NCBI RefSeq assembly: GCF_003602235.1
Contig: NZ_QZVS01000077.1
Span: forward strand, 1-64,000
Direction of reading: 5' to 3'
Source of the DNA: Cryobacterium melibiosiphilum
Lineage (GTDB): Bacteria > Actinomycetota > Actinomycetes > Actinomycetales > Microbacteriaceae
Length of the DNA: 64,000 nt
Positions 23,462-59,610 of this stretch are shown piece by piece (positions within the stretch are counted from its first letter, which is position 1; every line of letters starts with the position of its first letter). The notes under the pieces were generated by a model. It did not search any database, was not told where the DNA came from, and saw only the letters and a program-made list of their open reading frames with translations. The translations under genes were made by a program, and so were the position numbers.

Positions 23462-24760
23462 TCAGGCCGCTCCGCCGCTCTGCCCGATCAGGATGCCGCG
23501 CAGCACGTCCCGAATCGCGGCGACTCCTTCGTAGGTCTCCACGAAGCTCGTGCTGAGCGGAGCCATCCCGATGCGCAGGCCGTCGGGCGCCCGAAAGTCG
23601 GGGATCACGTCGTTCGCCCACAGAATCGTGGTCACCTGCCGCATCGCCGGGTGGTTGATCGTGACGTGCCCGCCGCGGTGGGTGCTTTCCCGGGGTGAGG
23701 CGACGGTGACGCCCATCGGCGCGAGCCAGTCGTCGACCAGGGTGAGGGCGAATTCGGTCAGCGCGACCGACTTGGCGCGCACCTCGGCGATCGTCGCCTG
23801 CTCGATCATGGCAATCGTGTCCTGCATCGCGAGCATGCCCACCACCGCGGGCGTGCCGCTCATGAAGCGACGGATGCCCGTGGCCGGCACGTATCCCGGC
23901 CCCATCAGGAAAATATCCTTGGTTCCCATCCAGCCCTGGATCGGCTGCGCCAGCACGTCCTGCAGGTCGCGGTGCACATACCCGAAGGCCGGAGCGCCCG
24001 GCCCGCCGCTGAGGTACTTGTAGGAGCAGCCGACGGCGAGGTCCACGTCGCAGAGGTCGAGCTCGACTGGAACCGAACCGACGGAGTGGCTGAGGTCCCA
24101 GAGCACGAGGGCGTCCTGGGTGTGGGCGACCCGGGTGATCGTCTTCATGTCGGCGAGAAAACCGGAGCGATAGGCGACGTGGCTGAGCAGCACGAGGGCG
24201 GTGTTCGGGCCTACGACCGCGCGCACCTGCTCCGGCGTGACGCCCGCCGCGGGATCGCTGGTAATCCAGCGCAGGGTGAGGCCGCGTTCGGCGGCGATGC
24301 CCTCGAGGATGTACCGGTCGGTGGGGAAATTGTCGCTGTCGAGCACGATCTCGGTGCGTCCGGGGCGGGCATCCACGGCGGCGCGGGCGAGCTTGTAGAG
24401 CAGCACGGTCGTGGAATCGCCGACGAAGACCTGCCCGGGCCCGGCGCCGAGCGCCGCCCGGCCGAGGTCGTCACCGATGCGCAGCGGCAGCTCCATCCAT
24501 TCGTCGTCCCAGCCGCGGATCAGCCGGGTGCCCCACGCCCCGGTGATGAACGCGGCGATGCGCTCGGCGGCCGCCGTGGTCGGGCGGCCGAGGGAGTTGC
24601 CATCGAGGTAGGCGATTGGGTTGGGAAGCGGTGCTGACGGGTCGTCGCTCTCGGCCCTGGTGCCGATGAAGCGCGCGCGGTAGTGCCCGAGCCCGTCGAT
24701 GCGGTCCTGTCGACGGGCGAACGCGAGGTGACTGTCGGTGAGCGGGGCGGTCGGGGTCAT
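23462..24760 (-). CDS. kynU: Kynureninase
   Basis: A 432-residue PLP enzyme cleaving L-kynurenine to anthranilate and alanine. The fold-type I signature is complete: YLDGNSLGRPT at the N-terminus, VFVGDSTTVLLYKL (phosphate binding), LVLWDLSHSVGSVPVEL with the PLP Asp, and CSYKYLSGGPGAPAF carrying the Schiff-base Lys. FMSGTPAVVGM and RIGMAPLSTSFVETYEGV close the active site. ATG 24760 overlaps the amidohydrolase stop by 4 bp. It is the last gene of a three-gene operon, so the probable output is anthranilate plus Ala rather than quinolinate; no kynurenine monooxygenase is present here. Confidence 0.96.
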   Translation of the reverse strand: MTPTAPLTDSHLAFARRQDRIDGLGHYRARFIGTRAESDDPSAPLPNPIAYLDGNSLGRPTTAAAERIAAFITGAWGTRLIRGWDDEWMELPLRIGDDLGRAALGAGPGQVFVGDSTTVLLYKLARAAVDARPGRTEIVLDSDNFPTDRYILEGIAAERGLTLRWITSDPAAGVTPEQVRAVVGPNTALVLLSHVAYRSGFLADMKTITRVAHTQDALVLWDLSHSVGSVPVELDLCDVDLAVGCSYKYLSGGPGAPAFGYVHRDLQDVLAQPIQGWMGTKDIFLMGPGYVPATGIRRFMSGTPAVVGMLAMQDTIAMIEQATIAEVRAKSVALTEFALTLVDDWLAPMGVTVASPRESTHRGGHVTINHPAMRQVTTILWANDVIPDFRAPDGLRIGMAPLSTSFVETYEGVAAIRDVLRGILIGQSGGAA

Positions 24761-25713
24761 CGGAGAGCCTCTCGGGCGGCGGGGGTGGCAGGGCTGGACA
24801 GTGTTGTGGGGATGGGCAGGGGGCCGGCAACGCTGCGGGCGGTGCCGAGCCAGTCGGTGAAAGCCTGCGGCTCGGCAGGCTGTGGGCCGATGAGTCGAGT
24901 GTGGCGCACGGCCGGGCCCCAGTCGATGCCGAGCGCTGGTTCTGCGCCCCCGGCGCCGTCGGTGAGGGCCGCGATCACGGCATCCGGTGACAAACCGGCG
25001 GTCAGCAGCGCACGGATCTCCCGCGGATTGACCCCGACGGGCAACGGCCCGTTGCCGAGGTCGGTGCCGTAGAGCACCCGACCGCCCCGGGCATGAAAGC
25101 GGCGCAGGTTGTCGACCGCCGCGTCGAACTCACGGGCCGGGCGGCCCCAGCCGTGGATGTCGAGGGTGCTGATCCAGGTCAGGCGGGCTGCCATCGCGCC
25201 GATCAGATCGTCGCCCAGCCGCTCGCTGAACGGCGTGTGTGCGAACGCGTCGACGCCGGCCTCGAACGCGCGCTGGGCCTGGCCGTGGCCCTGCGCGTGC
25301 ACGACCACGGCGACCCCCTGAGTATGGGCGTGGGCGACGATCGCGGCGAGCACCGTGTCGGAGAAGACCGGTCCGGCATCCGAATTCAGGGTGATTTTCA
25401 CCACGGATGCGCCGCCCGCGAGCTGCAGATCGACCGCGGCTGTCGCATCCGTCGCTCCGGCAGTGCTGGTGACCTGGAAGACGCTGCCGGGCGGTGCCCA
25501 GGGCGCCCGGCTCGGGTAACCACCCGGGGCGGTGAGCAGTTGCCCGGCACCGCGGATCACGGGTGAAGGCCCCACGCCCGCGCCGAGCGGCCAGCCGCCG
25601 AGGTCGAGCACCCGGCTGATGCCGCCGGCCAGCAGCGCGGCCGGACCGGCCGCATCCGTCAGGGCCAGGTGAACGTGGGCGTCGAGGAACCCCGGCAGCG
25701 CGGTGTCGGTCAT
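24757..25713 (-). CDS. Metal-dependent amidohydrolase, candidate N-formylkynurenine formamidase
   Basis: A 318-residue TIM-barrel amidohydrolase with a full metal-ligand set by eye: H13-x-H15 in DAHVHL, Lys 106 in VVKITL, His 139 in VVVHAQGH, His 159 in FAHTPFS and Asp 218 in YGTDLG. It overlaps kynA and kynU by 4 bp at each end. The pathway between those two enzymes needs hydrolysis of the formamide of N-formylkynurenine, and neither a KynB-type cyclase-like nor an alpha/beta-hydrolase formamidase is encoded nearby. The formamidase role is therefore inferred from context; the family itself (imidazolonepropionase-like) hydrolyses many amides. Confidence 0.8.
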
Positions 25714-26564
25714 GACCCGATTTCGGTGCGCACCGCGAACAATTCGGGAAAGAAGGTGAGTTCGAGGGCCTTCTGCAGAAAAGCAGCGCCACTGGATCCG
25801 CCGGTGCCGTGCTTCATGCCGATGATGCGCTGCACGGTTTTCAGGTGCCGAAAACGCCAGAGCTGAAAGTTGTCCTCGAGGTCGACGAGCTCCTCGCAGG
25901 CCTCGTAGGCGGCCCAGTTCGTGTCGGCGTGCTCGTAGATGCCCCGGAACGTCTGCACCAGTTCGGGGTGCAGCACCCAGGCCTCGGTCACGTCACGCTC
26001 GAGTACCTCGGTCGGTACCGTATAGCCGACCCGGTCCAGGTAGCGGAGGAACTCGTCGTAGAGGCTCGGGGCCTCGAGCATCTCGGTGAGCAGGGCGTGG
26101 GCATCCGGGTCGGACTCGAACACGCTGAGCATGCGCCGATTTTTGTTGCCGAGCGCGAACTCCACGGCCCGGTACTGGTACGACTGGAATCCGCTGGAAT
26201 TGCCGAGAAAGCCGCGAAACTGGGCGTATTCGGTGGGCGTGAGCGTCGCGAGCACCGACCACTGCTCGGTCAGGGTGCGCTGGATGTGCTTGACCCGGGC
26301 GATGCGTTTCAGAGCCGGGGCGAGGTCGTCGCGGCGCAGCGATTGCGTCGCCGCACGTAGCTCGTGCAGCACCAGTTTGAGCCAGAGCTCGGTGGTCTGG
26401 TGTTGGATGATGAAGAGCAGCTCGTCATGGTGCTCCGGTTCCCTGACCGGTTTCTGGGCACCGAGCAGGGTGTCGAGGTCGAGGTAGGTGCCGTAGCTCA
26501 TCCGCTCCCGAAAATCGGTCACGATCTCTGGATCGAACTCCCGCGTGTTGTTCTCGACCGGCAC
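25710..26564 (-). CDS. kynA: Tryptophan 2,3-dioxygenase
   Basis: A 284-residue haem enzyme opening the indole ring of Trp to N-formylkynurenine. Conserved stretches are [43 protein letters not shown] (distal pocket with the substrate His), [24 protein letters not shown] and [24 protein letters not shown] (proximal His and the carboxylate-binding loop). Length matches bacterial TDO. The start is GTG 26564 with AGGAAACGGAG upstream; sequence further upstream in the same frame is not TDO-like. First gene of the kyn operon, divergent from a TetR gene with 234 bp between. Confidence 0.96.
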
Positions 26565-26798: not shown

Positions 26799-27497
26799 AT
26801 GACTTCGTCCGCACGCGCTCCCCAGGACCGGCCGCAACCCCGGCGCCGCGATGCGCGGCAGAACCGGGAGCGCCTGCTCACCGAGGCCCGGGCCCTGATC
26901 GCCGTCAATGGCGTCGACGCTTCGCTCGAGGAAATCGCCCGTCGCGCCGAGGTGGGCGTGGCCACGCTGTACCGCAACTTCCCGACCCGCGACGACCTCG
27001 TGCGGGCCCTCTACGAGCTCGCCCTCGCCGAACTCGCCGCCGTGCAGGACGAAATCACGGCAGCCGACACCGCGTGGGACGGCGTGGTCATCTACGCCGA
27101 ACGCGTTGCCGAATGGCTCGTCGCCGACCCATCGCTGCCGCCGATCGTGAAGCGGATGTCCAGCCTCGACCCGGGCGCCCGGCCCGCCACCGACTTCGAG
27201 TCCGTCATCGCGGCGCTCGTGGCGCAGGCGAAGAAAGACGGCGCGCTGCGCGCCGACGTCGACGCGGCGGACATCGCCGTGTTGGTCACGATGGTCGGTT
27301 CGCTCGGCGGCCTCGGAAACGGCTACGCGGGCCAGTGGCGCCGCCAGCTCAGTATCGTGCTCGACGGCCTGCGCGCCGCCGACAAGCCGCGCACGAAACT
27401 GCCCGGCCGCCCGCTCAAGGGCAAGGAGTTCCAGGCCACCGTCTACGGCCTGACCCGCCGCGCCAAGCGCGCCGCCCGAGGCCCCGCCAAGTCCTGA
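26799..27497 (+). CDS. TetR family regulator, candidate regulator of the kyn operon
   Basis: A 232-residue regulator. The helix-turn-helix (about 20-65) reads [50 protein letters not shown], which is unambiguous. The C-terminal domain has [15 protein letters not shown] and ends in a basic tail rich in Lys/Arg ([16 protein letters not shown]) that may add DNA affinity. ATG 26799 sits behind TAGAAT at near-leaderless distance with no Shine-Dalgarno. It is divergent from kynA, which makes the kyn genes its most likely target; ligand unknown. Confidence 0.88.
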
Positions 27498-58467: not shown

Positions 58468-59610
58468 CTAGGCGCCGAGGTGTTGGTGCAGGAACGTCGC
58501 GACCCGGGAGCGCATCGCCTCGTCGAGGATTCCGATCGAGTGCAGCGCGCCGGGCACGGTCACCAGTTCATGGTCGATGTCGAGGTCGGCGAGGGCCTCC
58601 GCATAGTCCGTGGACTGCAGCAGGGGCACGTACTCTTCCTCGGACGTTCCGATGAATACGGGCGGGTCAGTGCGGTCGAGTGCATCAGCGACGGATGCCT
58701 CGGCCGCCGCGTCGCAGTCCTGCAGCGAGTCGCAGCCCACGTACTCCCGGGCAATCTGTTGCAGGCTGTCGCTCGCGCCGATCGAGACGAGCCCCTCGTA
58801 GGTGAGGTCGACGGGTCCGGAGAGTGCGGCAACCGCCGCGACGCGCGCCCCCTCGGTGAGTGACCCGGATCCGGTCGCGCCCAGTACGGCCGCAAGATTG
58901 GCGCCGGCGGAACCTCCGAACACGCCGATCCGATCGGGGTCGATGCCGTATTCCTCGGCGTTGTCCGCGCTGCGCATCCAGTTCACGGCCGCGGTCAGGT
59001 CGTCGAGTGCCGCCGGAAATACGACGTCGGGCACCAGTCGGTAGTTCACCGAATACGCGACGAAACCTTCGCTCGCGAGCCACTCGCAGACCGCACGCCA
59101 GTCGCTGTTGGCCTTGTCGCCGCGGGCCCAGCTGCCGCCGTGAATCGAGAGCACCGCGGGAAGCAGTTCCGCGCTCGCGTCGTCGTCACTCTCCGCATCG
59201 GTGTCGGTGTCGTCGCTCGCGGCCCCGGCGTTTGCGGGCTCGGTGGGCGTGGCCGGGGCATCCGTGGTCTCGGTCGGAGCGGTGCTGGCCGCGGCGGCCG
59301 GGACTGCGGTCGGGCTCGGCGTGGGCTGGGCGGGCGAACACACGTCGAGGGTGAGGGGTGTTCCGTCGAGCTCGGTGGCGTACTCCACATCTTCGTCGAC
59401 CCGCACGTCGCCGGCGGGCACGAAGGTGCGGATGCCGATAATCGCGGGGGTCAGCAGCTCGCTGGCCTCGTCGCTGCGGTCGTCGGGGCGCAGATCGGAG
59501 AGCTGGGTGTGAAAACCGGCCAACAGCATGGTCGCCACGATCGCGACGGCACCCACCACGAGCATGGTACGCAGGCGGTGCCGGCCCGAAGGGCGGGGGC
59601 GAGTGGTCAC
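58468..59610 (-). CDS. Membrane-anchored alpha/beta hydrolase (HSL/BD-FAE-like esterase)
   Basis: A 380-residue protein with one N-terminal helix (LRTMLVVGAVAIVATMLLAGF, about 13-33), a Pro/Ala/Thr and Asp/Glu-rich linker (about 90-145), and an alpha/beta-hydrolase domain. The oxyanion motif is IHGGSWARG, the nucleophile elbow FGGSAGANL, the acid probably Glu or Asp in FIGTSEEEYVPL, and His in ALHSIGIL. It probably hydrolyses an ester outside the cell; substrate unknown. GTG 59610 is used. Two Cys (VCSPAQ and the pair near YVGCDSLQDC) may form disulfides. Confidence 0.87.
   Translation of the reverse strand: MTTRPRPSGRHRLRTMLVVGAVAIVATMLLAGFHTQLSDLRPDDRSDEASELLTPAIIGIRTFVPAGDVRVDEDVEYATELDGTPLTLDVCSPAQPTPSPTAVPAAAASTAPTETTDAPATPTEPANAGAASDDTDTDAESDDDASAELLPAVLSIHGGSWARGDKANSDWRAVCEWLASEGFVAYSVNYRLVPDVVFPAALDDLTAAVNWMRSADNAEEYGIDPDRIGVFGGSAGANLAAVLGATGSGSLTEGARVAAVAALSGPVDLTYEGLVSIGASDSLQQIAREYVGCDSLQDCDAAAEASVADALDRTDPPVFIGTSEEEYVPLLQSTDYAEALADLDIDHELVTVPGALHSIGILDEAMRSRVATFLHQHLGA

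Follow-up and report, generated by a model that had tools for sequence, protein, structure and literature searches.

A predicted kyn operon containing an amidohydrolase gene

The 64,000-nucleotide stretch of Cryobacterium melibiosiphilum DNA analysed here (the window) carries on its minus strand the genes for tryptophan 2,3-dioxygenase (TDO) and kynureninase (KynU), and between them an amidohydrolase gene whose product we regard as a candidate N-formylkynurenine formamidase. The three genes are arranged as follows:

25710–26564, minus strand: kynA, TDO; GTG start at 26564; TIGR03036 match of 399.7 bits, above the cut-off of 390.7 bits
24757–25713, minus strand: candidate N-formylkynurenine formamidase, PF01979 amidohydrolase superfamily; 318 amino acids, ATG start
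23462–24760, minus strand: kynU, kynureninase; KYNU_C domain (Pfam match at 1.6e-25)

Read along the minus strand, the order is TDO, candidate, KynU, and a 4-bp ATGA overlap was found at both junctions, between the TDO stop and the candidate start and between the candidate stop and the KynU start, as a preliminary description of this DNA had claimed for kynA and kynU. Gene order and overlaps place the candidate inside a predicted TDO/KynU operon. Among the related loci, counts of xTGA overlaps were 57/69 and 66/76, with no background rate for comparison. A promoter and terminator scan found nothing. The KynU of the window stayed under the TIGR01814 cut-off (216.6 vs 246.4 bits), like most members of its family: TIGR01814 was matched in 160 of the 249 genomes of the same bacterial family that served as our family sample and exceeded its cut-off in only 21 of the 249.

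The candidate is a predicted amidohydrolase of the binuclear type

The candidate passes PF01979 (38 bits, cut-off 25), and its Pfam matches at E ≤ 0.1 comprise two amidohydrolase families and a sub-threshold PBP_like_2; neither PF04199, the family of the KynB formamidases, nor any alpha/beta-hydrolase profile was matched at E up to 0.1. The protein reached no NCBIfam equivalog cut-off and remained far below that of the Xaa-Pro dipeptidase NF051886 (54.7 vs 500 bits). HxH, Lys, His, His and Asp are present in the order expected of the binuclear PF01979 type, with the following positions and conservation in an alignment of 110 rows:

25669–25677, minus strand: H13-x-H15, metal ligands at the end of strand 1; each His in 109/110 rows, one gap; aligned with solved enzymes
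25396–25398, minus strand: K106, presumed carboxylated bridging lysine; Lys in 110/110 rows; aligned with solved enzymes, its carboxylation being presumed from the superfamily
25297–25299, minus strand: H139, metal ligand; His in 110/110 rows; aligned with solved enzymes
25237–25239, minus strand: H159, metal ligand; His in 110/110 rows; aligned with solved enzymes
25060–25062, minus strand: D218, metal ligand and presumed proton shuttle; Asp in 109/110 rows, one gap

All six ligands are thus kept in 109–110 of the 110 rows, the sole exceptions being gaps, and D11, H13, H15, K106, H139, H159 and D218 are invariant in 15 aligned rows (the window's included). Profile alignments place these ligands on those of the solved neighbours, with D218 aligning to the Asp of LlADH (9l6p), a position that reads Asn in entry 9l2t. 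The full metal-ligand set previously claimed for the protein was thereby confirmed, in register with solved binuclear amide hydrolases. By analogy with the superfamily, the candidate would hold two metals and a carboxylated lysine and would use a hydroxide nucleophile.

An AlphaFold2 model (62 rows) gave a TIM (triosephosphate isomerase) barrel with a predicted local distance difference test score of 92.7 and a predicted template modelling score of 0.90. Its top structural neighbour is the arginine carboxypeptidase 3be7 (Z 28.2, root-mean-square deviation 2.6, 278 aligned residues), followed by Cc2672 (3mtw) and the Xaa-Pro dipeptidase 2qs8, with ochratoxin hydrolases within 1.5 Z units; the 17 top-ranking solved structures, with Z from 28.2 to 26.7, all bear names of peptidases, prolidases, ochratoxin hydrolases or amidohydrolases. 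Neither KynB nor an alpha/beta hydrolase appears in the neighbour list, which alone proves nothing. The candidate has its superfamily and metal ligand set in common with the Xaa-Arg/Xaa-Pro dipeptidases 3mtw, 3be7 and 2qs8 and with the ochratoxin amide hydrolases 8ihq (ADH3), 9l6p and 4c5y, which are its best folds (Z 28.2 to 26.8, 9l6p lying outside the structural list) and give profile E-values of 1.9e-27 to 3.8e-15. However, it is only 19–24% identical to them and lacks at least the first 50 residues of those chains, its residue 1 aligning to their residues 50–99.

After removal of L113, L114, L137 and identical copies, the alignment comprised 93 rows with a link to TDO or to KynU, among them that of the window, and 17 unlinked rows. 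Comparison of the two groups revealed that G142 is found in 93/93 linked vs 3/17 unlinked rows, H187 in 89/93 vs 6/17, F206 in 92/93 vs 5/17 and N229 in 85/93 vs 3/17, while position N110 reads Asn in 74 and His in 19 of the 93 linked rows and Glu in 11 of the 17 unlinked ones; N110, G142, H187 and N229 are thus the candidate's own residues, distinct from the unlinked homologues tested. Two unlinked rows, L063 and L074, show the linked pattern at all five positions, and L164 nearly does. For a maximum-likelihood tree of 104 rows, L097, L065, L164, L140, L141, L099 and L090 were additionally dropped; a branch with 100/99 support parts 91 rows, all of them linked except L063 and L074, from 13 unlinked rows. 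The linked copies are one clade with residues of its own.

The nearest named relative of the candidate is that of Cryobacterium frigoriphilum (76–78% identity). Against three relatives (L033, L035 and L044) its nonsynonymous divergence (dN) was 0.15, 0.32 and 0.36 and its synonymous divergence (dS) 0.50, 0.86 and 0.81, giving dN/dS of 0.30 to 0.44; the gene is under purifying selection. The corresponding values for TDO and KynU were 0.03 to 0.14 (dN) and 0.43 to 0.89 (dS).

The candidate co-occurs with TDO and KynU

Within the family sample, 76 of the 249 genomes matched the candidate at 1e-10, and exclusion of the weak matches in G007, G203 and G248 left 73 to be counted, next to 86 genomes with TDO and 160 with KynU. 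TDO and the candidate occurred together in 61 genomes, TDO alone in 25, the candidate alone in 12 and neither in 151. TDO lies directly upstream of the candidate on the same strand in all 61 genomes with both, which represent 23 genera, with a gap between match ends of 5 to 356 bases. Because of this adjacency in 61/61 genomes, a chance neighbourhood was rejected. KynU was present in 73/73 candidate-bearing and 86/86 TDO genomes, and the candidate in none of the 89 genomes without KynU. Co-occurrence in actinobacterial kyn operons, put forward as a check in the preliminary description, is strongly in favour of the assignment.

A search of the named genome collection confirmed at least 394 relatives, of which the best 80 loci were kept. 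These belong to Microbacteriaceae, Cellulomonadaceae, Promicromonosporaceae, Nocardiaceae, Pseudonocardiaceae and Micromonosporaceae, and carry TDO in 72 and KynU in 76 cases. Eight loci lack TDO (L063 and L065, which begin at contig ends, and L074, L091, L092, L094, L096 and L112) and four lack KynU (L067 and L108, which end at contig ends, L063 and L074), L074 having neither as a neighbour. The gene order is TDO-KynU-candidate in L088, and L079 and L081 are two copies within one genome. Genome G170 has a TDO fragment at the very end of contig C20 and its KynU on another contig. The candidate stays with TDO in G559 and G551, where KynU is on another contig, and with KynU in loci missing TDO, as expected of an enzyme for the middle step.

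In a wider class sample of 345 genomes, 36 matched the candidate, 16 of them strongly, and all 16 have TDO. The 20 weaker matches (best E 3e-52 to 8e-21) showed no TDO or KynU in the 14 that were read. Since 190 of the 206 class-sample genomes with TDO have no strong match, the candidate is a minority enzyme. A plasmid search with the candidate returned one record, from Embleya.

Known formamidase types in the genome and its relatives

Two unrelated enzyme types are known for the formamidase step (PMC4217691), and those described are KynB and the alpha/beta-hydrolase type (PMC4243253, PMC4217691). PF04199, the family of the KynB type, has no match in the C. melibiosiphilum genome and is absent from 20 of the 61 genomes with TDO and candidate; found in 153/249 family genomes, it is not specific enough to serve as a marker of KynB.

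To see what occupies the corresponding position elsewhere, 20 TDO loci were read in genomes where the candidate had no strong match. An alpha/beta-hydrolase gene adjoins TDO or TDO-KynU in nine of them (L156, L158, L159, L161, L162 and, from large genomes, L143 to L146); Pfam analysis of seven of these hydrolases placed all in PF20434 above cut-off, and five that were compared are mutually related (30–70% identity). The hydrolase of L143 closely matches the solved "carboxylesterase" 9x6a. These operon hydrolases are presumed to be a kind of the kynurenine formamidase (KFase) found in yeast and Drosophila. A search with the L156 hydrolase found it in 23/249 family genomes, with avoidance of the candidate: 0/61 genomes with TDO and candidate vs 7/25 with TDO only, in six of which it adjoins TDO, lying far away in the seventh (G138). 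The C. melibiosiphilum genome itself has no match to it at 1e-15. The earlier claim that the known types are absent thus held for KynB and for the alpha/beta hydrolase of the relatives' operons; it did not hold for alpha/beta hydrolases in general, as discussed below.

Proposed function and relation to known systems

We propose, with a probability of about 0.83, that the candidate is a metal-dependent amidohydrolase and represents an additional type of N-formylkynurenine formamidase, one without homology to KynB or to the alpha/beta-hydrolase type. The computed basis is gene order, conservation, predicted fold, ligand set, co-occurrence and avoidance of the operon alpha/beta hydrolase, from which we infer the location, substrate, metals and mechanism. 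The reading of the gene as a new-type formamidase, already made in the preliminary description, gained support from the co-occurrence, from the absence of KynB in the C. melibiosiphilum genome and from the presence of an alpha/beta hydrolase in the operon of some relatives that lack the candidate. The enzyme would be cytosolic and metal-dependent, probably with binuclear zinc. The upstream TDO would yield its substrate N-formyl-L-kynurenine, which it would hydrolyse to L-kynurenine and formate, and the downstream kynureninase would convert kynurenine to anthranilate and alanine. H13, H15, H139, H159, D218 and the carboxylated K106 would coordinate two metals bridged by a hydroxide, which may attack the formyl carbonyl while D218 protonates the aniline nitrogen of the leaving group.

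KynB (cyclase family, PF04199) catalyses the reaction proposed for the candidate and has a binuclear zinc centre, but its fold differs from that of the amidohydrolase superfamily (PMC4243253). The alpha/beta-hydrolase KFases of yeast and Drosophila likewise catalyse this reaction, but are Ser-His-Asp enzymes with a fold unlike the candidate's (PMC4243253). An amidohydrolase, MymD/MyeD, has been proposed to cleave N-formylkynurenine in mycemycin clusters that also contain TDO and KynU (PMC5867642); MymD has 513 amino acids vs 318 for the candidate. The MymD/MyeD role is a proposal accompanied by a myeD deletion, the passages available from that paper giving no assay of the step (PMC5867642). 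In benzoxazole clusters, condensing amidohydrolases close rings (PMC12118335). No characterised kynurenine formamidase of the amidohydrolase fold was found among the literature matches listed, most subscription journals being outside the coverage.

If the proposal is true, the candidate fills an annotation gap, since no NCBIfam equivalog covers the protein of the window and the formamidase step in such operons is left without a named enzyme. With either this enzyme or the alpha/beta hydrolase next to TDO in related genomes, the operon would then offer a clear example of non-homologous replacement, and it would become possible to test directly how a peptidase-like amide hydrolase was recruited to act on a formanilide.

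Contrary evidence and alternative explanations

Several observations weigh against the assignment. The Fisher p of ~1e-25 for the co-occurrence of TDO and candidate ignores phylogeny, and the class-sample genome G428 has the candidate beside KynU with TDO on another contig. Where TDO and candidate occur together, 41 of 61 genomes encode some protein of PF04199, a family broader than KynB, and genome G150, which has the candidate without TDO, also has an L156-type alpha/beta hydrolase. Six loci (L148, L150, L151, L154, L155 and L160) are TDO-KynU without a recognisable formamidase gene nearby, which speaks against a strict choice between the two types and means that genes located elsewhere can supply this activity. 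The ratio of the candidate's dN to those of TDO and KynU is 2.3 to 5.4. The C. melibiosiphilum genome contains eight PF20434 matches, seven above cut-off and one in the window, which leaves room for a scattered alpha/beta hydrolase with formamidase activity. Finally, 12 of the 73 candidate genomes, from three genera and all with KynU, have no TDO at 1e-10; in genus g35 (4 of the 12) KynU is far from the candidate, and the other 8 have a methyltransferase gene no more than 5 kb away from it. The strongest PF20434 match is the one in the window:

58468–59610, minus strand: PF20434 alpha/beta hydrolase, strongest match in the genome; N-terminal hydrophobic segment

Because of that segment the protein is probably exported; a 98-residue stretch of it shows 44% identity to the L156 hydrolase.

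The eight PF20434 matches, together with the carboxypeptidases and prolidases among the nearest solved enzymes, would suit a merely co-transcribed hydrolase of the Xaa-Pro/Xaa-Arg dipeptidase group that acts on N-acyl amino acids or dipeptides, with an unlinked alpha/beta hydrolase as the formamidase. We consider this very improbable in view of the adjacency to TDO over 23 genera, the strict tie to KynU, the residues by which linked and unlinked copies differ and the apparent export signal of the strongest PF20434 protein. The constant company of KynU, even where TDO is missing, would also be expected if KynU acted first on N-formylkynurenine and the candidate then freed anthranilate from N-formylanthranilate, the chemistry on an aryl formamide being identical. 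This order of steps is improbable, since the usual gene order is TDO-candidate-KynU and the candidate stays with TDO in the two genomes whose KynU is on another contig.

It is conceivable, though on balance doubtful, that the TDO-less genera use the candidate in another pathway, in a methyltransferase-candidate-KynU cassette, and that only TDO-linked copies act on N-formylkynurenine, a scenario that would leave the formamidase assignment for the gene of the window intact. The methyltransferases concerned were located at:

L165, 5996–6796: S-adenosylmethionine-dependent methyltransferase (PF08241) near the candidate in a TDO-less locus
L091, 3956–4735: the same
L163, 7303–8067: the same
L074, 5897–6670: the same

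These four are 57–74% identical to one another, and that of L091 is 79–80% identical to copies in L092 and L096, so that methyltransferases 57–80% identical lie near the candidate in six loci, among them Frigoribacterium L091, L092 and L096 and Frondihabitans L074. The eight genomes with the methyltransferase within 5 kb are 8/8 genomes of two TDO-less genera (57–100% identity to the query), and 35 other genomes searched had homologues of 41–51% elsewhere (21 genomes) or none (14). The methyltransferase near the candidate in TDO-less loci looks like part of a separate cassette. On the other side, the TDO-less genomes G034, G109, G166 and G217 have only 46–51% homologues far from the candidate, and the TDO-less loci L112 and L094 have no such methyltransferase. 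The L156-type alpha/beta hydrolase also adjoins KynU in the TDO-less genomes G045, G132 and G171, so formamidase-KynU pairs without TDO are not special to the candidate. TDO-less bacteria either use outside N-formylkynurenine or employ the cassette for something else; import of N-formylkynurenine would explain the pairs of both enzyme types. Tentatively, peptidase-like amide hydrolases may have given rise to an independently evolved formamidase fold family that went on to spread among the kyn operons of actinobacteria, with re-use beside a dedicated methyltransferase and kynureninase in TDO-less genera in an undescribed kynurenine-type pathway.

Additional observations

That the candidate might be the type of genus f25/g115 (large genomes, most probably Streptomyces) was considered and rejected; an alpha/beta-hydrolase-motif gene is found there instead, after TDO-KynU in 4/4 loci read, with PF20434 in both that were run. 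In S. coelicolor, SCO3644-SCO3646 are reportedly formamidase, kynureninase and TDO (Zummo 2012). In G559 a penicillin amidase-like gene (PF01804; L178, 6456–8543, plus strand) stands divergently beside the TDO-candidate pair. In the window, one gene is divergent from the operon:

26799–27497, plus strand: TetR-family regulator (PF00440, 6.4e-11), possible regulator of the operon

The C-terminal domain of this protein is SbtR-like.
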